DNA from: Diphasiastrum complanatum
Lineage: Eukaryota > Streptophyta > Lycopodiopsida > Lycopodiales > Lycopodiaceae
Length of the DNA: 64,000 bases
Assembly (NCBI GenBank): GCA_029204225.1
Contig: CM055093.1
Span: 728,117-792,116 of the forward strand
Direction: 5' to 3'
A program made the position numbers and the translations under genes. Position 1 is the stretch's first letter. Every line of letters begins with the position of its first letter. Below are positions 30,491-59,086 of the stretch, piece after piece. The notes under the pieces are model-generated. The model had not been told where the DNA came from, ran no database searches, and worked only from the letters and a program-made list of their open reading frames with translations.

Positions 30491-33289
30491 CTAGCTTGGT
30501 TCAATCATTGCTTTACTAATCACTCCAAGTGATGATCTGAACTTCATAAAAGGTGTCTTTTGAAGTGGTTTAGTAAGTAGATCAGCTACACATTCATTGC
30601 TTGGAACATGCTCCAAAGCAATCTCCTTGGCTTGCACCATTTCTCTCACAAAGTGATGGCATATCTCAATGTGCTTAGATCTTGCATGGAAGATTGGGTT
30701 AGATGCAAGGTGTTGGGCTGATATATTGTCATTGTAGATGATTGGTGCCTCCTCTGAATCCATGATCTTTAGTTCCACCAATAATCTCTTGATCCAAAGT
30801 ACCTCCTTTGTAGTGGTTGTCAAAGCTTTGTACTCGGCCTCAGTTGAAGATAGAGATATAGTTTCTTGCTTTTTTGAAAGCCATGAAACCACACCTTCTC
30901 CTATGAAAGTTGAATAGGCACTTGTTGATTTCCTATCCCTCTTGTCCCCTGCGAAATCTGAATCACTAAATGCATTAAGGTTAATCACATCTCCTCTATA
31001 TAGAATCCCAAAATCCAATGTACCTGAGATGTATCTTAGAATCCTCTTAGCCTTTTTCCAATGGATATTCAATGGCTTTTGCATGGATTGGCTCAACCTA
31101 CATACACTAAAGCTAAGATCTGGTCTAGTTATAGTGATCCACATTAAGGAACCTATAAGTTGCCTAAACAAAGTGATGTCCATGAAGGATCTTTCATCAT
31201 CTTCATTTGGCACTTTTACATCTTGCTCCATTGGTGTGTCAACACTTTTGCATACTTCCATCTTAAACTTCTTCAAAAGACTTTGAGCATAGTTTACTTG
31301 ACTTATAAAGATAAAATCAGACCCTCTAAGTACTTCTATGCCTAAGATGAAGTGAAGACACCCTAGATCTACCATCTTGAACTCTAAGGATAGATCTATC
31401 TTGATTTTTTCAATACAATCAACACTATTTCCACTAATGATGATGTCATCTACATAAATGAGTAAAAGTACAATACCAACATCATCAAACTTAATGTAAA
31501 GAGTGGGATCATATTCACTTTGAACAAAAGAAAGTGAAATAAGATAGCAATGTAGTCTTGAATTCCAAGATCTCGAGGCTTGCTTCAAGCCATAGATGCT
31601 TCTTTGGAGATGGCATACTTTGTTCTCCATTCCATGCTTGATGAACCCTTGTGGCTGCTCCATATAGATATCCTCTTCCAAAAAACCATTCAAGAAAGCA
31701 TTAGAGACATCCATTTGACATAGAATCCATCCAAAATGTGATGCAAGTGCAATGATTAGTCTTATTGTGACCATCTTGGCCACGGGTGCAAAAGTTTCCT
31801 CATAGTCTATCCCTCTCTCTTGAGCATAACCTTTTGCAACTAATCTTGCTTTATGTTTGTTAACACTCCCATTTGCATTCAACTTAAGCTTGAAGACCCA
31901 CTTGCATCCTATTACATTCCTTTGAGGTCTCTCAACAAGCAACCAAGTTTCATTCTCAATCAAGGCATCATACTCATCCAACATACCTTTATACCATTCT
32001 TTGGAGTTCAATGCATCTTCAACATTAGACGGTTCTTCAAAACTAGATAAAGCATAAGAAGTGGATGAGATACCCTCAACTTTCTGTCCTTTGCCTTGAT
32101 ATGTGAGCCTTGATGGCTCCACTTTTGCCCTTGAAGATCTCCTTGGTGTGATAGGTGGGTTTGGTGCTTGCTCCTCCATGAGCTCCTCCTCAAAACCAAG
32201 ATCTTGCTCCTCGGCCATCTTCTTCTTGATTGTTGGAGCACTTGAGCCTTCTTCAAGCATATGCATATGATGTTCATCAAATATGACATCCCTTGAAACA
32301 ACAAATTTGTTCAAGGATGGGAGATAGAGTTTGTAGCCCTTGCTTGAGCTTGCATATCCAAGCATGATCCCTCTTGTGGAAGATGGATCCTCCTTGGTTC
32401 TTGTTTCCAATGGCACATGCACATAACATATACACCCAAAAACTTTCAAGTGATTAAGATTGGGTTTCTTTCCATACAACATCTCATAAGGAGTTTTGCC
32501 TTCAATGGCTTTGCAAGACACCCTATTCATCAAGTAGTTTGCACATACAAGAGACTCACCCCAAAAGGATTTGGGCAAACAAGCATCTAATCTTAAAGCC
32601 TTAGAACATTCACATAATGTTCTATTCCTTCTTTCAGCAACTCCATTTTGCTGAGGAGTGTAAGGATAAGAAGTCTCTTTCTTGATCCCTTCCTCCTCAC
32701 AAAAGGCCTTGAACTCATTGGAGATGAATTCTCCACCATTGTCACTTCGAAGAATCTTGATGCTATGATTATGATGCTTTTCCACAAACAACTTGAACTT
32801 TACAAAAGTATCAAATACGTGAGACTTGAAAGAAAGTAAGAACACCCAACAATATCTTGAGTAGTCATCAATGAAGGTTAAAAACATGGATGAACCTCCA
32901 TTAGATTTGGTGCTAGCAATGTGCACATCCGAGTGTATGAGTTCAAGAGGATGAGATGACTTTGTGATGGAGTTAGGAAACACCTTCTTATGTGCCTTGG
33001 ATAAGGCACAAGCTTCACAAACCTTGTCTTCCTTCCCAATAGACCTTGGTAGGCCTAAAGCATACTCCTCCTTGATCATAGCCTCCATGGAACCCGAGTT
33101 GACATGTCCAAGTCTTTTGTGCCATAAAGTAAAGGTAGATATCTTGCTCTTCTCGGCCAACATGACAACATTAGTATCCACAAATGCATCCAGCTTATAA
33201 AGTTTGCCAAGTCTAGTGCCCTTAGCCACTATCTTACCCTTCTTCTTGATGAAAACATTCATTTGAAGCAAAGTCAACATTGAAACCAT
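30491..33289 (-). CDS. Copia Pol: integrase, reverse transcriptase, RNase H
   Basis: 932 codons open without a stop. The pre-integrase HKRLGH lies near residue 52. The integrase core acidic residues are in HSDVH (about 119), RSDNGGEF (about 181) and QQNGVAE (about 217). RT carries GCKWVFKLK, ETFAPVAKM, SNAFLNG and the catalytic YVDD at about residue 612. RNase H carries SDSDFAGDK (about 776), SSTEAEYKAL and the tail VADLLTKPL. The natural N-terminus is not its first Met: the frame continues from the gag-protease frame, from which it is offset by one extra base in a T-run (see gag entry). It copies element RNA to cDNA and integrates it. Confidence 0.95.
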   Translation of the reverse strand: MVSMLTLLQMNVFIKKKGKIVAKGTRLGKLYKLDAFVDTNVVMLAEKSKISTFTLWHKRLGHVNSGSMEAMIKEEYALGLPRSIGKEDKVCEACALSKAHKKVFPNSITKSSHPLELIHSDVHIASTKSNGGSSMFLTFIDDYSRYCWVFLLSFKSHVFDTFVKFKLFVEKHHNHSIKILRSDNGGEFISNEFKAFCEEEGIKKETSYPYTPQQNGVAERRNRTLCECSKALRLDACLPKSFWGESLVCANYLMNRVSCKAIEGKTPYEMLYGKKPNLNHLKVFGCICYVHVPLETRTKEDPSSTRGIMLGYASSSKGYKLYLPSLNKFVVSRDVIFDEHHMHMLEEGSSAPTIKKKMAEEQDLGFEEELMEEQAPNPPITPRRSSRAKVEPSRLTYQGKGQKVEGISSTSYALSSFEEPSNVEDALNSKEWYKGMLDEYDALIENETWLLVERPQRNVIGCKWVFKLKLNANGSVNKHKARLVAKGYAQERGIDYEETFAPVAKMVTIRLIIALASHFGWILCQMDVSNAFLNGFLEEDIYMEQPQGFIKHGMENKVCHLQRSIYGLKQASRSWNSRLHCYLISLSFVQSEYDPTLYIKFDDVGIVLLLIYVDDIIISGNSVDCIEKIKIDLSLEFKMVDLGCLHFILGIEVLRGSDFIFISQVNYAQSLLKKFKMEVCKSVDTPMEQDVKVPNEDDERSFMDITLFRQLIGSLMWITITRPDLSFSVCRLSQSMQKPLNIHWKKAKRILRYISGTLDFGILYRGDVINLNAFSDSDFAGDKRDRKSTSAYSTFIGEGVVSWLSKKQETISLSSTEAEYKALTTTTKEVLWIKRLLVELKIMDSEEAPIIYNDNISAQHLASNPIFHARSKHIEICHHFVREMVQAKEIALEHVPSNECVADLLTKPLQKTPFMKFRSSLGVISKAMIEPS

Positions 33290-34460
33290 TGTCTACCATT
33301 TGGCCAACACTTAGTAGATTCTTTTTTATTGTAGGAATGTACAAAACACCTTCTATGTTGATCTTTTTGGAAGATCCTAAGCAAAGGGGAATGCTACCAA
33401 CTCCTTCAATCTTACAAGCTTCATCATTTGCTGTATAGATAGACTTCATAGGTCCATCATAAGTTAAGAGAGAAGAGAAAAACTCCCTTTTACTAGTCAT
33501 GTGTGAACTAGCACCCGAGTCAATCCACCAAGGATCTTCTCCTTTGAAGCTTGTTGAAGAAAATATGGACATCATGAGAGAGTCCTCATGTGAACTCTCC
33601 TCCTCCTCCTCTTTGCTCATGTTGGCTTGGCTTTGATCTTGCTTCCTCTTGAAGCATTCCGAGGCATAATGCCCCATCTTGCTACAATAGTAGCACTTCA
33701 CCTTTGATTTGTCCTTCTTGACTTTGGTTGTTGATGGAGATGCCTTTGGGGGTCCTTCTTGATCCTCAAGCTTTGTAGACTTCTTGAATGTTGATCCTTT
33801 GCCTTTGGACTTGCCTTTGCCTTTGGTGAAGAGAGCTTGGTCATCTCCACCTTGGATGGAAAGCCTATCCATCCTCTCTTGCATTTGGCTCCTTCTTGAT
33901 TCCTCGGCCATGAGTGTGCCTTGGAGTTCTTCAAGTATGGGTAGCTTACCCATAATTGCATATCCCTGAACCAAATTGTCAAATTCAAAGCTTAGTCCAT
34001 TCAATATGAGTTGAACAAGCTCTTCATCCTTGATAGGGTCACCTATAAAGGCTAGCTCTTTGTTCAATTCCTTTACTCTTAGGACAAAAGTATGTGCACT
34101 CTCTCCTTTCTTTTGATAGCTTCTATAGATTTGATTCTTCAAAGCTAACATTCTAGTTTGGTTCTTGGATTCATAGACCTTCTGCAAAGTCTCCCAAGCA
34201 TCTTGAGCTGAAGTGCAATCTCCTACCTCTCTTAAGAGTTCATTTGCAACATTCATTTTTATGCAATGTAGTGCAACATTGCACCTCTTGATGTATTTGG
34301 CTTTTTCTTGAGGATGAATAGGTTCACCCTCCTTACCATTTACAATTTCCATCAGATCTTGCATGATCATGATAGATTCCATTCTAACTTTCCATATGGA
34401 ATAGTTAGTTTTGTTGAGCCTTTCATTAGTATCCAAAAGATATGCATTTATAGATGCCAT
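33234..34460 (-). CDS. Copia Gag and protease
   Basis: 408 codons starting at an ATG (34460) that begins MASINAYLLDTNERLNKTNY, a typical copia gag start. The gag UBN2-type region fills residues 1-230. The zinc knuckle CYYCSKMGHYASEC is near 255-268 and binds element RNA. The aspartic protease site DPWWIDSGASSHMT is near 306-319. The frame ends at a TAA soon after LLSVGQMVDNG. A T-run at 33252-33255 (AAAA in plus sense) contains one base too many for continuity with pol, so gag-protease and pol overlap by 56 bp in different frames. Copia elements normally use one continuous frame. This is a single-base insertion, a +1 frameshift site or a sequencing error. Confidence 0.94.
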   Translation of the reverse strand: MASINAYLLDTNERLNKTNYSIWKVRMESIMIMQDLMEIVNGKEGEPIHPQEKAKYIKRCNVALHCIKMNVANELLREVGDCTSAQDAWETLQKVYESKNQTRMLALKNQIYRSYQKKGESAHTFVLRVKELNKELAFIGDPIKDEELVQLILNGLSFEFDNLVQGYAIMGKLPILEELQGTLMAEESRRSQMQERMDRLSIQGGDDQALFTKGKGKSKGKGSTFKKSTKLEDQEGPPKASPSTTKVKKDKSKVKCYYCSKMGHYASECFKRKQDQSQANMSKEEEEESSHEDSLMMSIFSSTSFKGEDPWWIDSGASSHMTSKREFFSSLLTYDGPMKSIYTANDEACKIEGVGSIPLCLGSSKKINIEGVLYIPTIKKNLLSVGQMVDNGFNVDFASNECFHQEEG

Positions 34461-41600: not shown

Positions 41601-44600
41601 ACTCTCACATTTCTAATTCCAACTCCCATGCAAATCTCCCTCACCTCTACACCTCACCCTTTCACTTCACTTACCCTTACTTCACTATGAGTCTTCCCCA
41701 CACGTCACACACTGAAACTTGACACATCACCACTCTTGGCAAGCCTCCCCACTCTCGCCTCATCATGTCTCGTAGGGATGCTTGATGTGAATGAATTGCT
41801 TGTAGTATTTTCATTTCTATTCATTCATGTACTTGATGAAAATTCCCTTTGAAAGTTCTTTTAATTTTGTGATAGATTTGAGTAAATTTTCAAGAATACT
41901 TTGCACGTAAGTCAAGGATATGTATTGTGGATCTTTAAGTTATCAAGAATCTTTCGCTTGGAGTTCAAAATTGAAATTTTTTTTGTCATGTATGGTCATG
42001 GCCTACAAAGAATCTAGAAATTTTTTAAAGCAAAAATTGAAGTCCTTGTGACAAAGGATGTTATATATGGTAATGAATTAAGTACTGGCCTGATCTTTAG
42101 ATCCTTAGAAAGTTTTATTAAATACTTTTATGGTTGTAGGTGCTAAGAGTATAGATGCCAGCTCCTAAAATCTTCTGTTGAAGCTAAATGCTACCTTTAT
42201 TTGATGTGCAACGAGGCTTGCAAGCCTCTAAGTTTTGTGATCTTTCTTTGGGTCATATTGTTATTGCAGATACATCAATCCTTCCATCGTTTTTGAAAGA
42301 GTTCTTTTCTAGAGGCACTTTTAGTTCATGCTTGCTTGTTAACCATATTGAAGAATCTTTTGGAGTCCATGGTTTGTTATCCGAATGGAAAGCTGAAGTT
42401 CCAAATTATGTGACGTTAAATTTGGAAAAAGTCTCATTTGTTCCATCTTCTAACAATCATACTTCATTTTCTATTGCGGAGGATGTTCTTCATAAGTTTC
42501 ATATATGTTTACAAAGGAAAAAAGGGATACTGGTTCTCGATTCTTGTTCCCATGCCGAAAGAGCGATTTCTCTTCATTTGATTCAGTTGTGAAAGTGTGT
42601 GTGTAAAATTTAGAAAGTGTGTCGTGAACAGATGAGAAGTTCCACAACCTGCTATAGTTACTAGGGTACTGCTTGTGCCTTATGTACCAGAGGAGCTTGT
42701 TGAGTTCTGTGGTGCGACTACTTGGAGCATAAAATTTGTTTGCTTATGCACCAGGGAAAAGGCTCCCAGTCGCCCCAACTTCAACTAGAAAACTAGACCT
42801 TTACAGAATAGTGATCAATACACTGATCATATATGGAGAACAAAAGTACTGACAGGAGCTTGTATCAGTTGTTACGCATCAGTTGATTTGCAGAATCAGA
42901 GTGAGATCATGTTTATGAGTACAATGAAGCAGAGATGACTGAAAAAATACATCTGATTGGATGTAATGGATTCCGTATCAGCCGCAAGTTTTCAAATAGC
43001 ATTGGAAGGCACAAATTAGAAAAAAACATTTTGACCCACTACGTTCTGGCCCAAAAGTCAGAACGAGTTCTACGAAAGGCAATTATAGTACTAACATGTT
43101 GTACAATAGTTATGAGAAGACCAAAACAATGTCGGGACTAGCTATAGAAACATGTGCACCTATATGCGGTTTGGAACCTCCAAGAGAAGCAAAATGAATG
43201 TGGTTTGTCTTATCTGCATAGCCCTATGCCTTATGAAGCAGATTTTATGCCTGTACTCATTTAGGGCACTCTATGACCTATTGAACTCGTGTAGGTATTC
43301 CTTTTGATGCGCCATTGATAATATTGGTCTTAATGCGTCATCTATATTCAAGCTTAATTTGTTTGACAAATTTTCCATGAAACTTCCTAAGGCTCTTTGA
43401 TTTCAGATGTTAAGTACTATCATAACTATATTTAAGTTGTCGAACATATGCCAATGGAAAAGAATAGTGTAGTTGGTAGTGTATAGTTTGTGGGTCCCCT
43501 CTTTTGTGACAAAACTAAGGATTGGAAAGTGTAGTTCCAAGAATCAAAGTCTTTGGCGTTGTGAACGAGTCACATTTTACCATGGATTAAGTTATATGCA
43601 GAGACGAAAACCAGCCTAATTATCTGGTGTGGAACAATGGCTTGGATGTGAACCAGTAAATGCATGATCTATGCTGGATAGTGATGAAATTATCAAATGA
43701 ATGGTGATGGGTACAACTAGTTACCAATAGCACTAAGAACTTAGATGATGTCAAGAGATGACAAATTAACTGCAATTATACCTTTCTAAACGTAACTAAT
43801 GATTTGTAGGGAGACAAATCTGTTTTTTCTGAAAAAAATTTGGCATTTTTCAAGGATTTTTTTGGGCTGTTTTTGGGGGGGAGACCAAAAAAAATTAATT
43901 AATTAATTAATTAATTAATTCTGCCACGGTTCACACGGTTCTGCTTAAAAAAAAATTGTCAACCGTACGGTTCAAGGTACGGTTCTGAGAACCGTACTGA
44001 ACCGTTAACGGTTCATTGATTCTATGGTCTAATTAATGTCTCTATATAAGGTAGAAGCACCCAACGCGTGTCTATAGCAAAGCTTCTGCTCCGAATCAAG
44101 CACTAGAATTTTAAACTCGATTCTAACTTGACTTTACTAAATAAAGGTAAAGGCCCCTAGAATTAGCATGCAGGCATGGCCCAATAATCCTAATTAATCC
44201 TAGACAACAACATTAGGGGTAAAACAATGTGAACAATAACTTTAACAAGGGGGCTGTTTTCTTGTTTTTAAACAAAATCAAATGCTAATATTAGAAAACG
44301 TAGATGTAGAAAAACATGTATAACTCACTTCAACAAGCTAGATGGTTCCTACCGATAGGTCCTTGGATATGGGCTAGAACACAATGCATGAAGAATATGA
44401 AATTCATATCGTTTGAAACTAAAACAATCAAGCATGCTTCAAGGCAGGCTGTGGCGCCAAGACGTGAATTTTCTTTAGTTTTATAAGGAAATAGGGATTT
44501 CGTGCTATTGACTTTGCTCTTTAGCATTATGTTGAAATTGCTCATTAGTATTATCATATGAAAGTTTTCTCACAATTCTATGTCGATTCCATGCAGGGGA

Positions 44601-47600
44601 TTCCTCCAATCAGTAGAACACCACTTGGCCGAGGAACATGGGTTACAATTCTATGCAAGAAGCTAAAAGATCGATGGTCTTGGGTATGCTATGATTGCAC
44701 TCTCATTTTCTACATCTTGGCAATAAATAAAAGAAAATAAATTCCTTTTCTTGTTTGCTGAAATGTATATTGCTTATTCTGATGACTTTCTGCTTGTTAA
44801 TCCTAGCCTTATGTATATTTGTTCAGGTCGCAGAAGGCCCTTGCCCAATCTTTGCCTCTCATGGGTGGGTTTGATAAATTTTGAGTAGAGTGAAAGCTCT
44901 TTTCAAGTGAGGATTCTTTCTCAATTGTATTATGGAAATATATTGCTGTTCTTTCCTTGCAGAGATGAGGTAGCTATTTACAAAGAGCTTGATCCTGCAA
45001 CCAGAGTGGAGATTTTGAAAGCACTTTGTGAAATACGGGTTGATGTACGATGTCTCCTATCTTTTGCCTTATAATGTTTGATTAAGAAAGCAATTTTTGT
45101 GCAACGTTTTGAATTTTAGAGACTTCTTTGCTTCGTGGCCTCATTGTCTAATATATATGGTGAGCAGTAGTTTAGACTTGCATGATCGCCTCTATGGATT
45201 CTATCAATGTTTTTTCCATGAAAAGGGAGGAAATTTGTTCGTAGCTTTTTTTGTAAGTGTTTCCTTTCTTTATAGATGGATTCTACCAATGTTTGTGGTT
45301 CCTTCATCTTTGTGTGAAGTTTTTGATTTAGTGGTTATCTCTATTCATGTGACTTGTGGCCAAGCAGGGAGGGCGCGCAAGGGAGGGGTTGTAGGGAGGG
45401 CGCGCAGGGAGGGAGGGCTCTCTCTCTCCCTCTTTCCCACACAACTTCTCTCTCTTGCTTAACTTCCCCACACCTGACTTGACCTCCTATGCACACTCTC
45501 TAACCACCGTTGCCCTTTCCTAGTCAGCAGCCTACTATACACACACAAACACCATAACTCTCTCGATGGCAGCTCCTCCTCCTCGCGCCCCTGCTCGTAG
45601 ATCAGCACAATCCCCAGCCACCTCCTCACTCACCTCCCTCGCTCACCACTCACCTCCCCTCGCTGCCCCTTCCCCTAACCCCCTCGCTGCTCCTTCTCCT
45701 TCCCTCGCTGCCCCTTCCTGTAACCTCCTCGCTGCTCCTTCTTCCCCCCTCGCTGCCCCTTCCCTCGCTGCTGCTCCTTCCCTCGCTGCTCCCTCCCCTA
45801 ACCCCCTCGCTGACCTCCCTGATCTCCTAGCTGCCACCCCCTCACCCATCCTCCTCGCTGACCCCTCCTTGTCACCCCCCTCACCTCACCCCCTCGCTGA
45901 TCCCTCACCTCACCCCCTCGCTGATCTCTCACCTCACCCCATTGTCATTCCAGCCCCCCCCCTCGTTGCCACTTCACCTCACCCCCTTGATGACCCATCT
46001 CCCTCTCCTACTACAACTCTCACCCCCCTCTCTGATGGCTGCTCCCCTGAATTCAGCTCCTCTTCTGTCTGACCCTATTCTTCCCACACCTATCATTGCT
46101 CACTCTTCCTCCTTCACGACACCACAGTCTACAGCCAATATTCTGTATACGCCTTCTAAATCAATTGAACTTTTTTCATCTTGGCAGATTGATCAATTCA
46201 AGGCAGATTTCCAATTTTTGCGGTATGAAATTTCACAGCTGAAAGGAACGGTTACTTCTTTGGTCAACGAGAAGAAGCTATTGCAGTCCAAGGTTGCCTC
46301 ACTCGAACAATCCATCGGAATCAAACATGTCGCAGCTTCGGAATCCACCACCAACATGCTACGGGAGGTAGAAACCAAGATTGAGAAGCAACACGAAGAG
46401 GCCCTTTCCTGGGCATCAGTTTTGAAAAAGGGCACCAAATCCAGCGCTCCCATCTCCTCAGTTATCTCAGCCACCATCTCGGAAGAGAAATCTCAAGACC
46501 AAAAATCCCACAATATTAGAGTTCGTGGAGTTCTAGATACACAGGATGCATTGGCTGAAGCTAAACGCTTTCTCGACATCACTCTCGGGCACAGGACAGT
46601 GGGGTTAGACACCGCATGGAGGACCACTAGAGATGCAGCCACACTCATTCTTCGTTTCACCTCCCTCGAGAGCCGTTGAGATGCTTTGCGGTGCAGAGCT
46701 AAGCTACGTGGTACCACTATCTACATGGACGACGACCTCACATATATCCAGGTAGAGGAGAGGCGTAAGGCCTTTCAGGCAGCCCGTGAGTCTGGCAGAC
46801 GAGTCATTTACCGAGATGGACGAGTGCGTTTTCTTGACAACGCACCTAGCAGCTCCCAGTGCTAGGGATTTGGGGTCCCCGGGTTTGGGAGTGCCCCGGG
46901 GCCCCACCCACACCATCTCCAGATTGGAGTATGGAACTGTGATGGTTTACACTCATCCTCCATTGCTGGCGACTTGATCGATTTCATCACTGACAGAGAT
47001 TTGCTGCTCTTTATGGAGACTCATGAGAGTCAGGAGAGAGGATTACCTATTTTTCCAAGATACAGATGGGATTCCGTGTACAGACTTGAGACTAGATCAG
47101 CTAGCGGTCGTGGATCCGGAGGTGTTGCATGTTTATACAGAGAGTCTCTTCATCCGAGCATTGAGTTCATCAGACACGACGAGCATGCACGGTATATATG
47201 GATTCATATTACTGGGCAGGATATTGGATTGGACAGGGACCTCTTTGTGGCGGCCTGTTATTTTCCTCCAGAGTCTTCGTCCTTTGCTGAGCGCACAGGT
47301 TCACCCTACCTTGATTTATCGCCTGATATCATCAGATTCGCAGAGCGGGGGCATATTCTCCTCACTGGAGATTTTAATGCCCGAACCTCTTCACGACAGT
47401 CAGAGTTCTATGACATCACCGACCAGCTCCGCGTTCATGCCCTTGACAGCGATGATATGGGAGTTACCAGGATTTCAGAGGACAACTTGGGACCCTACTA
47501 CCCCTTACGGTGAGCATTTATTGCAGTTTGGAGAGGCCCATGAGTTAGCCATTTACAATGGCCTAACTTGTTGGCCAAAATCTGGCAGTTATACTTGTCA

Positions 47601-50600
47601 CCCTCACAGTGGTGGACATAGTGTTGTGGATTATCTCATGGGATCACCATCTTCCATACCTCTCATATCTGATTTTCATGTATCTCCCACCACTCTCTCT
47701 GATCATTCCTTTCTCTCCTTCGCTATCGGCCGCCTCCCACCTCCCCAACCATCCTCACACCCCCTGCTTACACGGGCACCCAAGTATACATTCAGTTCTC
47801 TCTTTACACCAGTTTACCAGGAGTTCCTAACCTCATTGCTCCATTCCTTCCCTCGCGATAGTACAGTCGAGACTCAAGCTGCCTTTCTTAGCACTTCTCT
47901 TCATATCGCTGCTTCCCTTGCTTTTCCATCTAAACCCCATAAAAGCAGAGGCACCCGCTCCTCATCGATACGACCCCCACACCCCCCGTGGTATGATGTT
48001 GAATGTCGCTCTCTTCGTCAGCTTGTCACCCATGCCCGCACTCACGATCCTCATCTCCTCCACTCCGCCAGGCGCTCTTACCGTCGCACACTCCGCCGAA
48101 AAAAGCGTATATATGATGACTCCAAAGGAACGCGTCTTGTTGATCTTCTCTTTAGTTCCTCTTCAGGTGCCTTTCGGCGTGAGTTTATCCCTCGTGCTCC
48201 ACCACCCCTCCTGGATGACCTTCACATATGGACCGAATACGCTACCAAACTATATACCATACCCACTGACGCACCCATCTCTATCTCCCCACGCCCCTCT
48301 GAGTTCACCTTCTTCACATCTGACATGGTACTTACGGCCATCAAGAGAATGAAGTCCCATGAAGCAAGAGATATCGAAGACCTTGAATCTGAACTCCTAA
48401 CCCATGCTTCCGACCTCCTTGCTCCCACACTAGCCACTCTCCTCAATTCCGCCGTTGTCTCTGGTTTCCCCTCATCCTGGTGCACCAACATCATCCACCC
48501 TATTCATAAAAATGGTGATCCCATGATCCCTGGTAATTACCGCACCATCATGATCGGACATGTTCTCACGAAGCTCTATGGTACCATACTCCAGTCTGCA
48601 GTGAGTTCAGAGGCGGAAGCTCGGAGATTACATGCATTGGGGCAGGCAGGTTTCCGATCTCATTATTCTACCACTGACCATATTTTTACACTTCGAGCCT
48701 TGATCGAGGAAGCTAAGTACAGGAAAGAGAGGGTTTACTGCTGTTTTGTAGATTTCAAGAAGGCCTTTGATTCTGTACCACGCTCCCTGCTCATTCAGAG
48801 ACTTCGTGACCTTGGTTTCTCCACAGATATTGTTTTAGCAGTGATGGCTCTTTATGAGAAGGTCTTGGGATGTTTCCGACATAGCAGTGGCTTATCTGAT
48901 CACATTTGGAGCACCATTGGGGTGAAACAGGGGTGCTCTCTTTCACCGGTTCTCTTTGGATTGTATATTGATGAGTTAGAGCGAGTCATCTCACAGTGTG
49001 GCGGGGGTGGCTGTAGACTTGGCACCATTCTGATTGCTATTCTCCTTTATGCGGATGATGTAGTACTAGTATCCCCGACCAGAGAGGGTTTGCAGAGGCA
49101 GCTGGATAGTTTACAGGGATTTTGTACCAGATGGGGGTTGGGGGTGAACACTGCGAAGACCAAGGTTATGGTCTTCAACACTTCTCGAGCCTTCATGCAG
49201 CGCCAGGAGCTCATCCTAGATGGACAGGCCTTAGAGGTAGGTTCTTCTTATACCTATTTGGGGATACTCTTCTCTGGTCCTACCTTCAGCATGCGGCAAG
49301 CTGCCACCACCCGACTTGGGAAGGGGCATTCCTCTCTTGTTCAGCTTGAGCGGTTCTGTTTCAGGAAGCTCATCCGAGATGTTCGCAGTAAGTGTAGACT
49401 CTTTGATACTATTGTCACCCCCACAGCCTTATATGCAGCAGAGACATGGTGCACCGGCCTCCCTTCATCACATTGGGCCAGCATTTCACGATTGCAGACC
49501 ACCATGTTAGCCCGTATATTCGGGCGAAGCCCTCGGTTCCACATGAGATCCTTCTTGCAGAGTTTGCCGTTCCACCCATTCAGATGTATGCCGCGTTCCA
49601 GCTTATCACATACATTCAGAGAATCCAGGCTCTGCCCGATGAGGATATGAGATATACACAGACAGCACTGGTCTCCTCACACTTTCTTCATGACCGAGGC
49701 TATCGACTATCGTGGTTCTCTCAGGCATTCCATTTCCTCCTTGAGTCATTTGGTATCTCCATTACAGAGCTCCCCTCAGGTACTCATCAGTATATCAGGC
49801 GCATCTTATATCGGGCATATCTCGACCTTACTTGGGGGCGACAGCTTGGGGTGAAACCCGGCTACTACTGGACTCATTTTATTGAGCTTGACATAGCAGG
49901 GGTCCCGGTCTTACCGCATTATTTGGACTCGAGACTATCACATTGCCTCAGATTTACATTGGGACAGCTCAGTGTATCATCACATCAGTTGGCTATTGAG
50001 ACTGGTAGATTCCAGGGTACCTCGAGAGAGGAGCGGATTTGCCAGTTATGCTCTTTAGAGGAGGTGGAGTCAGAGGAGCACTTTATCTTTAGGTGCCCGG
50101 TATATTACGAGATCAGAGGGAGATACCACTGTTTGTTCCGACACAAACCTGTCACCTTACGATCACTCATAGCTTATGAGGATTCCCGATGCGCGGCACT
50201 CATGATACGAGAGATGTTTATACTACGACGGGATTTGTATCAGACAGCCCAGCCGAGTCAGGTTTCTCAGCCTCAGATCACTTCTTTCTTCTCCAGGAGG
50301 AGAGGACGTTTTGATGACGGTGACGATGATGATGATGACCTACTTGCGCATAGAGACCGGAGACAACGTCCCACACATACCCATGTTGCAGCACGAGCTA
50401 CTCGACCTATCACGAGGAGACCTCTTCATCCTCTCAGACGACGTCAGAGACCACCAGTGGCCCTTCATGCCACAGGCCGTATTACATCCTTCTATATCAT
50501 CAGCACCAACAGGACAGGACTAGATGATAGCGTCATATCTCACTCATGACTGTTAGCAGTATACATGCTCCCACATGTTTCTAATAGCATCACATCTATT

Positions 50601-53600
50601 TCAGTTTATAGCTTTAGCTCTAGATTGCTACTTTGTTACTGTTTTGGAGACGTTTCATACGCTCCTATGGTTACCACATACTTGACATGTACATTTACTA
50701 GTCTTATATGCCTTTTGGCATGGAAAAGACATTAATAAAGCTTTCTTTCTTTCTTTCTTTCTTTCTTTCTCTCTCTGCGCCGCGTGCGCGCACACTCCTC
50801 CCCCCATCGGCTGCCTGCCATCGGCGGGCACACTTCGCTAGTATATATTAAAGATATTTTAGAGAGAGAATGTGAGGGTGTGTTAACCCAGCCTACTCTC
50901 CCTATGTCACGCCTACGGATTGAATTGAACTTTCAGACCTTGAGGTGAGGGAAGGAGTTACCAACTAAGAGATTGCTTATATATGGATGAACTCAATTAT
51001 ATTGAGATTTTTTGTTGCACTTTATGATGAAACAATCTCTTGTTTTGCTAATTTTTGGGTACACTTCAGAACCTAAATGTCTGATTTTTGTGTGGTGTCA
51101 TTGTGATCTTAAATGTGCTGTCTGGAATCAAGTATGATATCTTATCTCAAATCCTTGGCATTCATTTTCTAGTCTAAGATGATTATGAACTATTGTAAAT
51201 TTTATTGACTGTCATTTTATTAAAGATTTTATTTATTCCACAAGCTCATTTTATGGGGTGTTATAACATAGCTTCTCATATAAGCTGCAACATAGGGAAG
51301 CTGCTTGAAACTTTTTGTTTTTTCTTGTAGTTCTATTTAAAATTCATGTTAATATATGTATTATGTTCTTTTCCAATCAGTCCTTCAAATTTTGAGCTAG
51401 TTATTAGCTAATTGTAAGTCAACTTGTTCCCAAGTTTTACTACCAATGGAGAGAGGATTGTTGGCGAATAAATTTATGGGCAAAAAATATATGGGCTTCT
51501 AATTTGGCTGATTCTAGTTTTTGTGCGAGTGACATGGTGGTATGGGGAGAGATTTCGTTTTCCCCAACCGAGCTCTTGTGTGAGCTTTGCTTTTTGTCTC
51601 CTCAAGAGATGAGTTATGAGAAATTATTAGAGTCTCAATAAGCACGGGTGGGCAATAATCTACCTTTTGGGAACTCTCTATCATGGCAAGACTGGACCCG
51701 AATGGCAAAGAAACCAGCCTGCGAGTTACTCTAGAAGCCCTAAAACACATGCTGCAAATAAGAATGGGGCAGTTAGCTAATTAATGGCCTGGTGCTTTAA
51801 TAAAATGTCCAGGGAACTTTATAGATCCAGCATAATATCTCCATGAAACAGATGAAAAAGTATCTGAAGGGAACAGTGAGGAGTTTGTGAGAGAGGAGGC
51901 AGGGAGTGCCTGACATGGAATTCCTAGCAAAGAGGACTGGGAGAGAAATTTGAAAAGAGTAGAGGGCAGACAAGATGGGTAAAAGGGGTCACCAGGATTG
52001 CAATGATCAAGGGACTTGGTAATGGCTGAAGGAGGACCCTTTTTCCGTGAGATCTTTAAAAAGAACATCTGCTTCCTCATTATGGGATGTAAGGAACACA
52101 ACATTTCTGAACGTTGCAGGTTCTGAACTTCTTTTTGAAGGAACTCTGGTTATTATTACGTGCTAGTTTCATCTACTTGTGACGTTGCAGTTTAGTAGTT
52201 TCTATTCTTCAATGATATAAGCTGTCAGGATAGTGAATGAAGTCTATGCTATGTATGTGAGGGTTTGATTATCTGAATGCTTTGAGTTGAGTAATAATAT
52301 TTCTTTTACCCTTCTCCAGCTGTACAGTGCATGACATACTTGCATTTCTTTTCATATGTTGCAGCAAGATGATTTTCGGTCTCATATAGATGATTCACTG
52401 AAACATGGGTGTCCCATCTCAGTTTTTCGGAAGGAACGACTTATGTCAGATACATATGGCACAATATACTGGTATAGTTACATTTGTTCTATGACTTGAA
52501 TGTTCTGGAAACTAAGTGCAATTCTTTTTGAGGCAATTGGTTCTTTTTCTTGTTATGGTAACGACACAACTGATACTTCATGTTGGTCAATGTTATAGAT
52601 ATTTCACATCTTTTCCTGATAGGTATGAAGAAGATTCGATTTCAGGCCACCGGTTATACCGTGAATTACAGCAAAAAGTAGAAATAAGGACGAGGGGAAA
52701 AGTTTGGGGACGTACAGCACCTACTCCAGCGGCTGGTCAATGGGAGACGTTAGCAACATGTATTGAGGAATTTCAATCTGTGGCAGTATGGATTTCTGTA
52801 TCATAACTTGCAACTTATGTTTTGGGCTGTTTATCTGCATGTGCATGAAGATTAATTACGCATTTATGAGTATGATCGACATGCTCAAGCTGAAAAAAAT
52901 TACTACGTTGACAAGAAAGAAGATTGAAAATAAATCCAAATTAGTCGTTTTGCGAATATGATCTATTGAAGTAGCAGTAAAATTATCTACAAATCTGAAT
53001 TCAAATTTTGGTAGAAAATAAACAGTGAAGCTTACTCAAGGATCTTGGTGTCAATGCTTCTGGACATGATTTCAGTTTTTGATATCATATTTGATTTGGT
53101 GTAGCTCACTCCTATCCAATAGCAATGCAGGAAAAGCTTGAGTCAAGTAGAAACAGGCACGAAGCAGGCCTTGGAATTAGGATCCAAAATGACATCATTC
53201 CAGAACTAGAAGAGCTTCAAAAGGTGAAACACTGGACTATGGGACTTATTCTAACATTTCTAGCTTTGACATAGTTAAATGCAATTGCTGAGGAAGGTGG
53301 TATGTGTCAGATGAGAAGAGAATTTCATGGTTTGTGCACTTGAAAGTGACATTTCTGAGATATTTAGGTTAATTGCTCCTATTTTTAGTTTGGCTACCTG
53401 ATGAACAGATAGGTGCATGCTAATTGACCTTTGCATCATTTCACATCTGTATGGTGCTAATATTTCAGAAAAAGGAACGAGCAATAAAACGGCAGCAGAG
53501 ACAGGTTCTTTTATTGAACAATGCATTTTATGGAGATGGACTTGCAGTTGGGAGATCACGGAGAGATCGTAAACCAGTCACGTACACTTTTGGTGAGATA

Positions 53601-56600
53601 AATCTTCTTATTAGCATTGGAACTTATATCAATAAACGGGTCTTTTCTCATGAGAGTTTTAATGAATCTTCGTTTCAAGCAACAATTAGCAGCACATTTT
53701 CTAGGTATTAACTAAAGACAATAAACTCGAGAGATGATAGTCTAAGAAAGGATCAGAGTCTCTGAGGAGTATCAGGGGACTGCAATTGTACAAGAAAGAG
53801 ATGATGCATGTTTTGTGAAGTTTGAGAAGCCTTATGTTCTAATTTGCAATATAACATTATGATTATGCATGCAGTGATAAGATACTTCTCCTGTAAATTT
53901 CTATGCCAGAATGGAGTGAGATGGTTAACACAGCGATAAAATAACATCAGAATACTAAAGGGTACTAGAATCAGTGAGTAACACAAGTAGGCTCTTAGGA
54001 AGAACACTGGAACAACAAAGAATGGCAAAGCATTGCCCAACTGCGAAGTCAAGAACTCATCAACAAAAAAAGACATCAATTCATACTATCCTTGATTAGT
54101 GTCTTTCAGAACCGTGCCTTCTTAATTGTAGGTGTTTGTTTTCTTTTGGAAATCTCAGCTGAGGAACTTCAGGACATGCCTATCAGTCTTTTCTAAAGAT
54201 TCGCCTGGTTATTGTCAGGAAGTCAAAATTTCACTAAACAACTTTGGCCTTAAGGGTTTCGATAAAAATCATGTATTCACGGGGTCATTCCTTGAACTGT
54301 GCAAATTTCTCTTAAGATGAAAAATATGAAGGTGGTTCCTGTATACCCTTCACCTGTGGAGATGCTCCAGGAAAACCAAAAACTCTAGTGTATATTAAGA
54401 TGAAAATTTTAAGGTGCTTCTTGTATGCCCTTCACCTCTGAAGTGATAGAAAGTCAGCATATTGGCTTTATTTAAATCTACATAAATTAACGTGGACATA
54501 TTTTTATGCTTATGATCTGCACTTACTCTAGGGTGCTCACAACATGAGTATGGAGTCATCAATGGAATGCATGATTTAATTGGTGGTCGCAGGTCTCGTG
54601 GGTGGAGTCCATTTCCATTTTAAAGCAATATACATGCTTTCTCTGTGGCAAATTGTTTGAGTTTAGAAGCACTAATAATTTTTTCAAATCATGGCTAAGT
54701 AGAAACTCATTTCCTGGCTTGTCTGTGGAAACTCGTTCTTGCATTTCCATGTTTCCCAAGGGAGGTTCCCAGTCTGGGGAAAAGTTTGTAGAACACTTGG
54801 GGAAATATGTATCTAGATTCTATATATAGGAAGGGTTTCTTTATTGGGGAAAAATCAAAGTGTTTCTTTGATCTGTAAGGCCAAAAGGTCAATTTTACTC
54901 CACAACACTTGGTTTCTGGTGACTTTGTAGCCTATTTTTCATGTATTTTAGGGTTTCTACATATTGGGGATTAACATACGCCTGATTTTCAAAGAAAGAG
55001 ACAACCATGATCTCAAGAACTTTAGAATCATAATGGTCTGCAGCCCGATCGCTAAGCTTTATGTGACAATTTTGGACAGGAAAATAAGTAGATGAGCTGA
55101 AGCAAATGAAGTAGGAGCTCCCTCCCAGGTTGGCTCTGGACCTAAATATTCGTGACAGGCCACCATACATCCCTAAGAGCCATATCAAAAGGTGCAGAAG
55201 AAAATGGCCAATTCCTTTATTGTTGCTTTGTTGATTTTAAAGCGTTCAACACATTACCAAGGCAAAAGATATGGGAGAGAATGATCACATCACAATTACC
55301 TTAAAATGGTAGAAAGGCCCTCAGGCTTTATGAGCAAGTATGAGTTGAGTTGCCTAGACACTTGTGGACGATAGAGAAGAGAAGATGAAAATGAAGCTTT
55401 CAACATTGGAGTTGGGCACACATCTCCTCTCTTATACTATTCGGTTTTTCTATGAACGAGCTAGAAAATCGGCTATCAAGGCAAGGACACAAGTGGAGTG
55501 GTCAACGTAATAGGTTATACTTTATTATTGCTCTTTTGTGCTCAAGATGTGGTTCTACTAACCCAATATAGAAGTAATTTTCAGAAGTTGGTTGGCACGC
55601 AACAAATTGTCACCACTCTGGTATCAAAGTTAACGTTAGCAGAACTAAAGTAATGGTGATTGTGTTAGAAATCATAGCATGCAACATTCATTCAATTCAC
55701 GAGAGAGAAGGGAAAGGTAATACATAGTGCTTCTTTCAGAGAATCACAATGCCACAAATATGGAACAAGGGAGATGGAGGAAGTAACGACCGATGGTTGC
55801 AAGTCCATTTACACAAGGTTGGGACCTGACCGTTGTTAATCACATCATATGGCTCTTGGGCCCGTATGATGAATTTATTACACTAAAGTACATTGTGGCT
55901 GCATGTAGTAAATGACTAACTTAAATTAAATAGAACTTATTCGATTTGAATAAAACCTTCAATGAGTCAATGCTATATCTGATCTGTGTGAATCATCCCA
56001 TTGTTTGTCTGATGGCGTATGTATAATGTCTGAGGCCCAAATCAGGGCTAGTTATACGAGTGTGAGTGTTGATGTTTGCTAACAGGTACCTACCAATTAT
56101 ATGATGTATGTTGATCCTAGGTGGGGCTATTCTCCTTGATCACATGCATCACTGTGCTTACACATTTGAGCATTTTGTGCTTTTCTAGAGATCAATGACA
56201 TCTTTAAGGCATAAATTTTTATTCGTCTTCATTGGTGGGATGAAACTTCAGATTCTCACTCGGTGTGAATCTAGATATCAATATTGCAAAACTGCAGGAC
56301 ACACCCTTGGCTTAAAATCTATCACCATGGATCCCTTTCTAGGTATGGAAGGGCTTCATCTACATTCGTGGGATGAAACTTTAGATTCAATATAGATAAC
56401 ATCAACTGCATCCCGAGGTTCTTGTATGGAATTTTTGCAAGGAGTCAGGATGATAGCTGATTCTCAAGTGCAGCATTATTTTTGGTGATTGAATATTGTT
56501 TTTATTCTTCATCTAAACTTTCAAACAACCTATGAAGATATTCCAGTTAACCTATGGTGCAATGTTTTTCTTGTAGTAAACCATCGTTTATATGCTAGTA

Positions 56601-59086
56601 GCCAACATTGTCTTAAGAGCCACATGGACGTTGAAGAAAAATATTTTAAAAAAGCTTGATACTACAGCCCAAAGATGAATGGGGTGGACGCGGACAGGGC
56701 AGGGGTGCGTCTGGGTCCGGACGCGTCCACCCTGGACGCACTAATTTTTTTTTTTTTTTAGTTTAAAAAAAAAAAGGACGCGCCCGGGTCCAGACGCCGG
56801 ACGCAGACGCGAAAAGGCCAAACACCAAATCTGAGGATCTGTTGAACGCAATCCTCATGTAGCTTTCCTCACATGATCCTCAGAAAAACACGGAGCTTTT
56901 AAAGTCATTTTTTCTTGGCTCTCATAGTCGTGTCTTTTGGAACACACGGTTTTTCTGTTTTGTTTTCTATTTTCAAAGCTTTTCTGCAAGGTGTGCTTAG
57001 AGGGCCCTAGAACAGCTATGAGGCTACCATTTTACACTAACTACTGTTTTAGCATCATTGCTGAAATTTCCTGTAGCTCAGAAATTGAGGTTCTAATCAT
57101 TAACACTTGCTGTGCTACAGATGAATACGACCGATCTATCAATGAAGCCATCAACTTTACAAAGTATGAGTCTGCCTTTAGCTACAGCAACATGGTTAAT
57201 GAAAACAAAGCTTTTTGAGGCAACCTTAGCAACACCTATCCAACTTGTTAGTTGCATGAAGTTCAGGATAAACTTGTACTATATGATGAGAGATTTTATT
57301 CTGCACTGATGGCTTGTATGTGGTAATTGCAATAGGAAACGGCATCCATCTCCAGAGCCTACTGCAAGGCCTGTTCAGACAGATCGTATTTTGAGAAATG
57401 GGCCTGCAGATCGTGGGAGACATGATTTGGCAGAAGCAAATGACAGGCTTGATGCCGAGAATGGACACGAAGGCATTGTAGAGAAAGCTCCAGCCAAAAT
57501 TGCAGATCAAAGTGACAGATCTGATCAAGAGTCGCCACGTGCAGTTGGTTCTCGTGGGTACGTTTTTACATTGAAGAAGCTATTTGATTCTTTCTACTGC
57601 TTTATTCAGAGGTGTTCCTGAGTAATAAATTGGTCATGATGTTATGGAGGGGTGAAAGTTTTGAGCTGTGAATGTTTGAAATGAAAATTTTCCAGTTGAA
57701 CAGGTTTACTGTCAAGTCTGATGTTATAATGGGAAACCAAAGGTGATTTAAGCCTGTGAAACTAGGGAATAGAGTCAGGTGTCTTTGAAGTAAGTTCAAA
57801 TTGATACAGTTATTTCCCTTCACTTTTCTAGGCTTCAAATCTCTTAAAAGTTGGATTTGAGCAAGACTTCTATGGACCATGTCACCTCCTCTTTGAAAAG
57901 AGTCTATGGATTGTTGCTTTCATTCATGATGTTGCTCTAGATCCTTGTTTTGCATTTGAATCATCTTCACACATGATTGGTTGATGTATTTTAGTTGCTA
58001 GATTTTAGGACTGACAGGTTTATAGATTGTATTACTTACTGTGGTTCTATATGTTTTAGCATACTATTATTTGTAGACTGTGATTGATGCATGTCTGTTT
58101 GCATTGAACTCATTCACCATCAAAGCTGATGATTGGGAAGTTTGTGCATCGTACTTAAATACTGGGATGTCGCTCCCTGATGATTGGGAAGTTTGTGCAT
58201 CGTACTTTAATACTGGGATATTGCTCCAAAGGGCATCAAAGCTGACACACTTTCTGTGTGTGTTATGCTATGCAGTGAGAGACATCGCCGAAGGCCTCAA
58301 CGTTATGCAGGACATGATTTTGTAGAAGCTGCATATAATGACGATGATGACCAGTACAGTGATGATGAAATAGAAGGGGAGGTGGTTTATTATGATGATG
58401 CGTATGGGGAAGGAAAGGAAGGCTCTGACACAGACGAGGAGTACAGGGGAGAGGAAGATGGTGACATGGAGGAAGAAGAGGATGAAGAAGAAGCAGATAT
58501 TGGGAGTGAAGATAGCGACGAAGATGCTAGTCTGGAGGATGGCTTGAGGGGGACGCATTCTAACAGATACAGAAGAAATGAAGCAAAGAGCAGGCGTAAG
58601 TTAAAGTTTGTCGGCGATTTGCAATCAGGCTTAAGACGCAGTCAGCGGTCTACGCGAAGTTTGATTGATTACAGCAAGTATGAAGGAAGTGATTACGAGG
58701 AGGATACTTTTGATAATCCCCATCGTAAGAGAAGTAGTAGGGTTACTGGTGCCAGAAGTAGTAATAGTTCAGTAGACTTGGAAGAAGATGCCGAAAGTGA
58801 ATCATTCGAAGCACGCAAAGCAGATGAGGGGAGAGATTCGGGTAGTGAGGAGTTAGCTCATACTGAGCTAGAAAGTGACATTAAGAAGCCAATCTTCAGG
58901 GCCTCTGAAAATGGGGAAAGTAGGCCTGAAAATGAACAAAGTAATGTTTTTGTCAAGCGCCGATTTCTAGATTTAAACCAGATAGCCCCTGTTGGTCCTG
59001 GATATGATATACCAAGTTCTAGTTCTAGAGGTTCTGATTATGCTGAAGCAGTGGACATTAATCATCCTGTTGAGCAAAGGGACTAG
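38644..59086 (+). CDS. DDR4: DDT/WHIM-domain chromatin protein, DDR4-like (12 exons, 712 aa)
   Basis: Exons: 38644-38901, 39238-39348, 44597-44683, 44827-44864, 44963-45044, 52365-52471, 52623-52785, 53131-53223, 53469-53592, 57121-57163, 57336-57557, 58276-59086. All introns are GT-AG and phases join without a stop, giving 712 residues. The first 68 are basic and Pro/Ala-rich. The DDT domain starts with RWQLRSMWELASIFNFLK (69-86) and runs to about 150, with SFNELESSL and LEDVHIALLK. A WHIM-type stretch follows: EILKALCEIRVDQDDFRSHI, then VFRKERLMSDTYGTIYWYE and GHRLYRE (about 176-240). A helical EKLE...ELEELQKKKERAIKRQQRQ segment comes next, then an acidic tract (about 458-530), and a C-terminal FLDLNQIAP. 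This order and the FLDLN tail match plant DDR4. DDT and WHIM motifs bind ISWI remodellers (CHR11/CHR17 in Arabidopsis), so a nuclear role in nucleosome spacing is likely. The start ATG is the first in an open exon. A 5' non-coding exon cannot be excluded. Confidence 0.88.
40345..40400. repeat. Palindromic word cluster GGAACGTACTG
   Basis: GGAACGTACTG (twice), GTACGTTCC and CAGTACGTT alternate in direct and inverted orientation within 56 bp, next to an AT-rich block. A second small cluster with GGAACG, CGTTCC and GAACG lies at 40964-40988 after a poly-A run, so the two may be ends of one roughly 650-bp unit. Confidence 0.65.
42188..42592 (+). other. Unrecognised 134-codon open frame inside intron 2
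   Basis: The frame has a mixed, protein-like composition unlike the simple repeats around it (for example SSCLLVNHIEESFGVHGLLS and LHKFHICLQRKKGILVLDSC). A CAG at about 42270 could be a splice acceptor, so it may be one exon of a relic gene or retrocopy. I do not recognise the family. It is not needed for the DDT reading frame, which joins exons 2 and 3 in phase without it. Confidence 0.3.
43890..44020. repeat. Palindromic word cluster ACGGTTC with an AATT tandem
   Basis: After an (AATT)n run (about 43893-43920), ACGGTTC occurs five times and its complement GAACCGT twice in about 90 bp, separated by a poly-A stretch. It can fold in many registers. Confidence 0.7.
45566..46865 (+). pseudogene. 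LINE ORF1 (RNA-binding protein), one stop and one frameshift
   Basis: It starts at ATG 45566 with a Pro/Ala/Ser-rich region built from LAAPSPNPLA-like octapeptide repeats (to about 46050). After a frame change it enters a coiled coil (about 46185-46400, FKADFQFLRYEISQLKGT, NEKKLLQSKVASLEQS). An RRM-like part follows (NIRVRGV ... RDAATLILRF). A TGA at 46677 interrupts the conserved C-terminal part, which continues in frame as ERRKAFQAARESGRRVIYRD and RVRFLDN to a TAG at 46863. The TGA is a likely CGA-to-TGA change at a CpG. The layout matches L1 ORF1p, a trimeric RNA chaperone. Confidence 0.78.
46863..46905 (+). promoter_or_regulatory. In-frame UAG between LINE ORF1 and ORF2, followed by a GC hairpin
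   Basis: ORF1 and the endonuclease share one frame and are separated by the single TAG at 46863-46865. Six bases later 46872-46883 pairs with 46895-46905: 4 + 4 + 3 all-GC pairs, with one bulged T at 46876 and an 11-base loop. No ATG opens ORF2 until 46974, beyond the first conserved endonuclease residues (GVWNCDGLHSSS at about 46926). This suggests readthrough, or reinitiation, as the way ORF2 is translated. It is an inference and has not been tested. Confidence 0.45.
46866..50549 (+). pseudogene. LINE ORF2: endonuclease, reverse transcriptase, zinc knuckle (two frameshifts)
   Basis: The endonuclease begins with VWNCDG and LLLFMETHE, followed by GGVACLY and LLTGDFNAR in the first frame. After a shift near 47480-47505 it continues SVVDYLMG and LSDHSFLSF. 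The RT in the second frame (to about 49520) has NYRTIMIG, QAGFRSHYSTTDH, CCFVDFKKAFDSVPR, GVKQGCSLSPVLFGLYIDEL and the catalytic YADD (49048-49059), then LGVNTAKTKVMVF. A second shift near 49520 enters the C-terminal part with SVPHEILLAEFAVPP and a CQLCSLEEVESEEHFIFRC knuckle (C-x2-C-x9-H-x4-C), an acidic run and a basic Arg-rich tail ending at 50549. It is a typical L1-type order. All catalytic motifs seen are intact, and only the frame is broken. Confidence 0.92.
50550..50776 (+). repeat. LINE 3' UTR and (CTTT)n tail
   Basis: About 190 bases of AT-rich 3' UTR with AATAAAG at about 50733, then seven or eight CTTT units and a short CT run. A tetranucleotide tail in place of poly-A suggests template slippage at the 3' end during target-primed reverse transcription, as seen in some LINE clades. 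Confidence 0.7.
50777..50990 (-). mobile_element. tRNA-derived SINE-like element
   Basis: On the minus strand CTCTTAGTTGGTAACTCC (50954-50971) resembles the tRNA A box, and GTTCAATTCAATCC (50918-50931) fits the B box pattern GWTYRANNC, with a spacing of about 23 bases. A non-tRNA body continues to about 50790 and ends in GAGAGAAAGAAAG. The head is too diverged and lacks paired stems, so it is not a tRNA gene. Its tail runs into the LINE tail (tail to tail). Confidence 0.5.
54960..55690 (+). pseudogene. Degenerate LINE reverse transcriptase relic in intron 9
   Basis: Plus-strand pieces in shifting frames read IMVCSPIAKLYVTILDRKIS, EANEVGAPSQVG, YCCFVDFKAFNTLPRQKIWE, SMNELENRL and QDVVLL. They line up with LINE RT blocks (NYRTI-V---KLY, GFR---T-DH, FVDF-KAFD, LF-LYI-EL, YADDVVLL). 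Many stops and shifts indicate great age. The motif wording differs from the LINE in intron 5, so it is another family. Confidence 0.7.
56686..56812. repeat. Palindromic word cluster GGACGC / GCGTCC
   Basis: GGACGC occurs five times, GACGC in three further contexts and GCGTC(C) twice, with GGGTCC twice, in about 127 bp. The two halves are split by a poly-T run, AG, and a poly-A run (about 56745-56775), which can pair with each other. The local GC content is far above the surrounding intron. Confidence 0.7.
58127..58228. repeat. 51-bp tandem duplication in intron 11
   Basis: TGATGATTGGGAAGTTTGTG begins copies at 58127 and 58178, nearly identical. It lies just before exon 12 and does not affect its acceptor at 58276. 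Confidence 0.85.

Follow-up and report, generated by a model that had tools for sequence, protein, structure and literature searches.

Candidate programmed UAG readthrough between ORF1 and ORF2 of LINEs in the lycophyte Diphasiastrum complanatum, marked by a conserved and covarying 3′ hairpin

Readthrough of stop codons is already known from retroviruses and from viruses of plants, and plant retroelements provide at least one further case, SIRE1 (according to a passage of PMC2194720). In the excerpted text of PMC3542737 and PMC5382211, type III readthrough signals consist of UAG-G or UAG-GGR together with a structure 3′ of the stop, with gammaretroviruses and Tombusviridae given as examples; one wording in these excerpts has a G or a purine-rich octanucleotide after the stop, and a structure typically ~8 bases on. 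Translation of the second open reading frame of LINEs, on the other hand, is understood for few elements, with SART1 and human L1 thought to reinitiate, insofar as the cited passages cover them. Among the matches listed from the open-licence literature, including that on fern and lycophyte LINEs, we found no description of readthrough between a LINE ORF1 and ORF2; the type of signal is known and the type of element is known, and their combination appears to be new.

The junction considered here lies in a window of 64,000 nucleotides, i.e., the whole stretch of D. complanatum DNA that was analysed (assembly GCA_029204225.1, contig CM055093.1, positions 728,117 to 792,116). Judged by its predicted domains, the element carrying it is a non-LTR retrotransposon of the APE endonuclease type, PF03372 lying upstream of PF00078 as in APE-type LINEs. 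Its features are as follows, with positions counted from the first base of the window.

45561..50774 (ends approximate), plus strand: LINE (non-LTR retrotransposon) copy; most copies align from ~45562 to 50776, and a 3′ (CTTT)n run occupies 50741-50774
45566..46862, plus strand: ORF1, with a Pro-rich N-terminus, a charged stretch, then a C-terminal domain
46677..46679, plus strand: premature TGA within ORF1, copy-specific; the first base is C (CGA) in 37 of 40 copies and T in 3
46863..46865, plus strand: UAG between ORF1 and ORF2, candidate readthrough codon (UAG-GGA); TAG in all 40 copies and in each of the 20 junctions compared across families
46866..46871, plus strand: spacer GGATTT from the UAG to the stem; the same in 40 of 40 copies, with stem onset about equal in other families
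46872..46883, plus strand: 5′ arm of the hairpin, with U46876 bulged in the all-GC register; supported by covariation
46884..46894, plus strand: apical loop with conserved GG-AG letters, their columns invariant or nearly so in alignments A1 and A2
46895..46905, plus strand: 3′ arm of the hairpin; supported by covariation
46866..47510, plus strand: start of ORF2, a linker and then an APE-type endonuclease (PF03372, E 2.6e-10), with the WN motif at 46932-46937
47506..49647, plus strand: reverse transcriptase part of ORF2 (PF00078, E 1.1e-29), matching L1 ORF2p and R2 chains
49407..50549, plus strand: C-terminal part of ORF2, bearing a CxxC...H...C motif; PF13966 match weak and under its cut-off (E 0.053)

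The window copy is dead: the TGA at 46677-46679 interrupts its reading frame, which also shifts near 46050, 47493, and 49535. An extra A at 46050, missing from all six other copies that reach the site (L002-L006, L008), breaks ORF1; an extra C at 47493, missing from seven of seven other copies, puts the reverse transcriptase in another frame; and the C-terminal part of ORF2 occupies a third frame. A single frame thus spans only 46680 to 47513, and within it the TAG at 46863-46865 is in frame with both the ORF1 C-terminal region (46680-46862) and the endonuclease. The co-linearity of these three parts, claimed in a preliminary description of this DNA, is therefore confirmed; its interval 46677..46974, put forward as one frame split by a single UAG, does hold one frame on either side of that UAG, but begins at its first base with a second stop, the TGA. 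ORF2 had also been described as lacking an ATG before its first conserved residues, and there is indeed none in frame up to the WN motif.

The ORF1 N-terminus (45566-46030) is a Pro/Ala/Leu-rich tandem repeat array, several of its periods being multiples of three, and the array differs in length among copies. No Rfam family reached its gathering score within the window, no sequence relative of the endonuclease or ORF1 C-terminus was found in the PDB at the thresholds used, and a scan of viral contigs with the reverse transcriptase, ORF1 C-terminus, and endonuclease confirmed no relative. Elsewhere in the window, a second LINE reverse transcriptase remnant (approximately 54976-55658), 28-39% identical to the first and full of stops, was considered as a further example of the junction and is too decayed to show one. 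On the minus strand, 30491-34460 holds two long overlapping ORFs of 408 and 933 codons, which we take by eye to resemble a nearly intact Copia-type LTR element. The LINE itself may sit in an intron, presumably of a host gene with an acidic stretch (44500-45060 and 58211-59086, by eye).

The preliminary description placed an 11-bp all-GC stem six bases 3′ of the UAG-G. A very stable hairpin is present and does start six bases after the UAG, those six bases (GGATTT) including the G that follows the stop; the 11 G-C pairs form only with U46876 bulged (arms of 12 and 11 bases), and the minimum-energy fold differs, with U46876 in a U-G pair and a 1x1 mismatch instead of the bulge. Relative to dinucleotide shuffles, the local fold of 71 bases is not exceptional (z -1.67, with 18 of 200 shuffles equally good). 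In a comparison chosen after the fact, the element contains 5230 windows of 45 bases, 2 of which (the hairpin itself counted) reach the stability of the hairpin, and an equally stable 3′ stretch follows 1 of the 156 stop triplets in the element (the junction UAG itself), 1 of 3633 on the plus strand of the window (again itself), and 1 of 3520 on the minus strand. The hairpin of a single copy alone would have left the question undecided; we regard it as more than chance because it is conserved in other families, as detailed below.

Across those families the GG-AG loop letters (46884-46894) are conserved as well, though the codons to which they belong differ (Gly-Ser or Arg-Ser). A pairing partner for these letters was sought and none was found. 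The loop complement CTCCCA occurs six times in the window element, one of these sites (50568) lying in the 3′ UTR, within a small hairpin's loop; long-range pairing between the junction loop and the 3′ UTR was set aside on little data, as just 2 of 10 fetched 3′ ends (L077 and L086) match the window 3′ UTR by BLAST, neither with CTCCCA. This small search, covering the window element and the 10 other-family 3′ ends, established no pseudoknot or distant partner for the hairpin.

Further copies were sought in the source genome (1.74 Gb, 5176 contigs), the one genome from which all of our data come. A first look gave 4166 candidates, of which 40 (window included) were scored, each with 98% identity or more across 1001 bases; these are the copies closest to the window, hence a biased sample, and two of them (L042 and L045), 99.8% identical over 6199 bases including flanks, are probably one place assembled twice, which leaves ~39 places. 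Both the UAG and the GGATTT spacer are found in all 40. The same frame is open for at least 61 codons before and at least 215 after the UAG in 27 copies, and one copy is fully open, with 475 codons before the UAG and 1227 after it, although the native start of the family is probably not the first ATG of this copy. A length test of at least 440 codons before and at least 1000 after the UAG was passed by one copy, with other ORF1 or ORF2 lesions in the remaining 39. Between the UAG and the endonuclease motif no copy has an in-frame ATG, nor does any within the 19 codons after the UAG; over the interval from -30 to +60 around the UAG, an ATG in any frame is absent from 38 copies and present in 2. 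The first in-frame ATG after the UAG stands at codon 50, downstream of the WN residues, in 38 copies (window included) and at codon 198 in one, while the last copy reaches a stop earlier.

These 40 near-identical copies show that the UAG is the family state. As evidence their agreement is weak when taken alone, since at ~1% divergence about one change would be expected over the three UAG bases and finding none is unsurprising; likewise, the stem varies about as much as the endonuclease (0.0066 vs. 0.0076 minor letters per site), so no special constraint is visible from own-family copies alone. The pattern CTCCCAGTGC-NNN-GGATTTGGGG matched the genome 290 times (reversed control, 0), and among the 100 listed of these matches the NNN triplet was TAG in 99 and TAC in 1. 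Some copies are 5′-truncated and begin inside ORF1 (e.g., L014, L044, and L046), and dispersed copies share the 3′ end. A CT repeat run of at least 12 bases was seen in the 5′ flank of 25 of 27 measured copies and in the 3′ flank of 28 of 35 (loci L009-L047), which suggests a target preference of this LINE family for (TC)n repeats.

Other LINE families of the same genome were reached through a pattern for the GDFNAR endonuclease motif with a codon absent from the window family (1014 matches; reversed control, 0). From the 100 listed of these matches, 28 stretches were hand-picked to span different spellings, and their upstream DNA was examined. Nine of the 28 lacked a junction, being truncated or different, and were excluded from the junction counts (L050, L052, L061, L062, L064, L065, L066, L070, and L072), whereas L063 (3′ arm lost) and L059 and L075 (indels) were kept. 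The ORF1-endonuclease junction was reached in the other 19, and all 19 have TAG followed by G; in the 20-row alignment that adds the window, the T, A, G, and next G are invariant. Clustering these 20 junctions by nucleotide identity gives 8 groups at 75% and 6 at 70%, with seven representative longer stretches 43-84% identical to one another. No in-frame ATG occurs within 22 codons after the UAG in any of the 20.

The frame, too, is shared. The endonuclease motif lies in the UAG frame in 16 of the 18 other-family junctions that reach it, and the WN motif (WD in one) does so in 17 of 20 junctions, window included; the exceptions are L057 and L059, shifted by indels, and L073, in which the stretch ends before the WN motif. 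An additional stop interrupts the linker in L058 and L060. Upstream, at least 14 of the 20 show, by eye, the ORF1 C-terminal motif in the UAG frame. From the UAG to the W, the linker measures 21 to 26 codons (15 in L063) with the frame kept, as would be expected of linkers of varied length if the linker is translated. The bases just after the UAG are purines first (GGA, GAA, GGT, GAC), then TT. Directly upstream of one copy there is also a 5′-truncated relative (L048:7590-8073), its 3′ end 69% identical, without a junction.

When junctions were folded individually, a stem of at least 9 pairs appeared in the same register in 19 of 20 (18 of 19 from other families; lost in L063), beginning ~6 bases after the UAG across families. 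RNAalifold, run unprompted on the 20 rows, returned 11 pairs, 7 of them with compensatory changes; in this structure 89.0% of cells are paired, and its covariation score of 0.497 compares with 0.310 for shuffled alignments (0 of 500 as high) and with at most 0.260 when the structure is slid along the alignment. The all-GC register of the preliminary description, scored on the same rows, has 83.3% of cells paired and a covariation of 0.386 vs. 0.257, exceeding all 500 shuffles. Reduced to a single row for each family (8 rows, gap-free), the alignment has 89.6% of cells paired and 5 pairs changed on both sides; its covariation, 0.449 vs. 0.251 shuffled, was attained by none of 500 shuffles and fell to 0.280 or less on sliding. 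A third set consists of hairpins retrieved with a pattern leaving both upper-stem arms free (1548 matches; reversed control, 4), of which 37, 32 of them distinct, were examined; here 81.6% of cells are paired and covariation is 0.292 vs. 0.191, again above every one of 500 shuffles, with a maximum of 0.181 when slid. Two further measures set the stem apart less clearly: as many pairs changed on both sides, or more, occurred in 140 (all-GC register), 80 (RNAalifold), 25 (8-row), and 105 (37-hairpin) of 500 shuffles, and as many pair types in 202, 218, 11, and 289 of 500, respectively. Shuffles ignore relatedness; the slid controls retain it and score well below the stem. Protein constraint may contribute to the conservation of the stem, which is itself part of the coding sequence.

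The triplet before the hairpin was read separately, using a pattern for the hairpin 5′ half (849 matches; reversed control, 0). Among the 100 listed of these matches it is TAG in 96, CAG in 2, and TAA in 2, triplets beginning with A being excluded by the pattern; TAG at 96 against TAA at 2 indicates that UAG is kept, and not merely any stop. The preliminary description had pointed to other copies as the place to look for the same UAG, frame, and 6-base spacer, an ORF2 lacking an upstream AUG, and compensatory changes in the stem, and each of these was borne out, the covariation score exceeding all 500 shuffles. Within the source genome, none of the four contrary patterns that were looked for occurred, i.e., copies without the stop, a different frame between the ORFs, an ORF2 AUG upstream of the endonuclease, or a stem without covariation. 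The sequences themselves show the shared frame, the conserved UAG-G, a spacer of fixed length, covariation in the stem, and the absence of an AUG.

We consider it highly probable, on the basis of these sequences, that programmed UAG readthrough makes both ORF1p and an ORF1p-ORF2p fusion. ORF1 and ORF2 would act as one reading frame interrupted by a single UAG, such that ribosomes translating ORF1 would meet UAG-GGA (or UAG-GAA and similar) with the hairpin positioned at the channel entrance. The majority would terminate at the UAG and release ORF1p; a fraction, induced by the UAG-G and the hairpin six bases on, would insert an amino acid at the UAG and continue. The product of these continuing ribosomes would be the ORF1p-ORF2p fusion, which would constitute the sole route to the endonuclease and reverse transcriptase. 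We infer from the sequence that ribosomes read through, as we do the rate at which this happens, the role of the fusion as the working enzyme, and the setting of an ORF1:ORF2 ratio. It is also likely, with somewhat less assurance, that the whole LINE clade uses this retrovirus-like UAG readthrough to make the fusion at a set ratio, that the signal predates the split of families now less than half identical, and that the resulting tether between ORF1p and the enzyme could give the element its cis-preference.

A different way to reach ORF2 would be for translation to terminate at the UAG and to begin again, by reinitiation or internal entry, at a non-AUG codon close to the endonuclease, the hairpin slowing the 40S subunit; this would resemble SART1 or human L1 except that there is no AUG. 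Such a mechanism has precedent, insofar as the available parts of the sources describe it: reinitiation is reported or proposed for other LINEs, with SART1 requiring a downstream structure (PMC5972666), and a stem ~14 bases after a weak start codon can assist a non-AUG start (PMC3542737). Near-cognate codons are also at hand in some junctions: six of the 20 (window included) have an in-frame ATT at codon 20, and six have a TTG at codon 18; yet no near-cognate is shared by all 20, and the first 21 codons of L075 contain not one of the ten that were tested. The lack of any AUG before the endonuclease motif in the 40 copies and within 22 codons in the 20 junctions, the lack of a common near-cognate, and the keeping of the frame across families together argue against reinitiation, which moreover predicts neither a requirement for UAG over other stops nor one for the same frame, and we hold it to be unlikely.

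Still less credible is the proposal that the UAG and hairpin serve another RNA job (packaging, reverse transcriptase priming, or ORF1p binding) while ORF2 is expressed by another route, e.g., from a spliced or edited RNA. Conservation of the loop letters would fit such a job, whereas the fixed position of the stem relative to the UAG speaks against it; a spliced or edited template would, in addition, tend to copy back without the UAG, yet the UAG is kept in the copies, although this is an argument and not a test. That the UAG is simply a decay mutation, in an element whose ORF1-ORF2 frame was formerly uninterrupted, is the least plausible account and may be put close to nil. The window copy does have other lesions, including the C-to-T stop at 46677, and CAG replaces TAG before 2 of the 100 listed hairpins; a decay mutation would nonetheless be expected to be scattered, as is the TGA at 46677 (3 of 40 copies), whereas TAG is found in every one of the 40 copies, in 99 of 100 listed own-family junctions, and in all 19 from other families.

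Should programmed readthrough prove to be the mechanism, a gag-pol-like strategy would have been reached in LINEs. The ORF1p:ORF2p ratio would be fixed by a short, portable RNA signal, which is directly testable, and ORF1p would be physically joined to the enzyme, with a bearing on cis-preference. For plant ribosomes, the junctions also supply candidate readthrough signals whose sequences vary naturally.

Set against known systems, the following comparisons extend as far as the cited passages do. SART1 and human L1 resemble the present elements as two-ORF LINEs in which ORF2 must be expressed behind ORF1. Unlike here, SART1 uses termination-reinitiation at an overlapping stop-start site, and in human L1, where a spacer of 63 bases precedes the ORF2 AUG, reinitiation is proposed to take place at that AUG (PMC5972666); no such AUG is present in the lycophyte LINE, an ORF2 AUG before the endonuclease being found in 0 of 40 copies and 0 of 20 junctions. 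The Candida albicans element Tca2 has an in-frame stop between gag and pol and a potential 3′ pseudoknot, although its stop is UGA; in a yeast dual reporter, its gag-stop-pol junction gave no readthrough (PMC2194720), and by analogy we would consider this result the main caution against a readthrough reading of a similar layout. Soybean SIRE1 is likewise a plant retroelement, said to use suppression of an in-frame stop (PMC2194720), but there the stop precedes an envelope-like ORF, and does not lie between a LINE ORF1 and ORF2.

The preliminary description likened the layout to that of murine leukaemia virus gag-pol, and in part the likeness stands: in both, gag-like and enzyme ORFs share one frame, and a UAG is followed by G and by a close 3′ structure. 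The virus, however, is a retrovirus with a compact pseudoknot after an 8-base purine-rich spacer, whereas in the LINE a plain hairpin is predicted after 6. Tombusviridae replicase readthrough differs in that it depends on long-distance pairing to a 3′ portion of the RNA, for which our small search gave no support in the LINE. Relative to type III signals in general, the spacer falls short of the usual 8 bases and is not rich in purines along its whole length, and the covarying stem, at ~6 bases after the UAG, lies slightly closer than the typical ~8; the stop itself agrees, with UAG-G in 20 of 20 junctions and UAG-GGA in the window. The closest match at the level of the triplet is the UAG-GGR of Tombusviridae, with which the LINE junction also has in common a 3′-proximal structure and a plant host.
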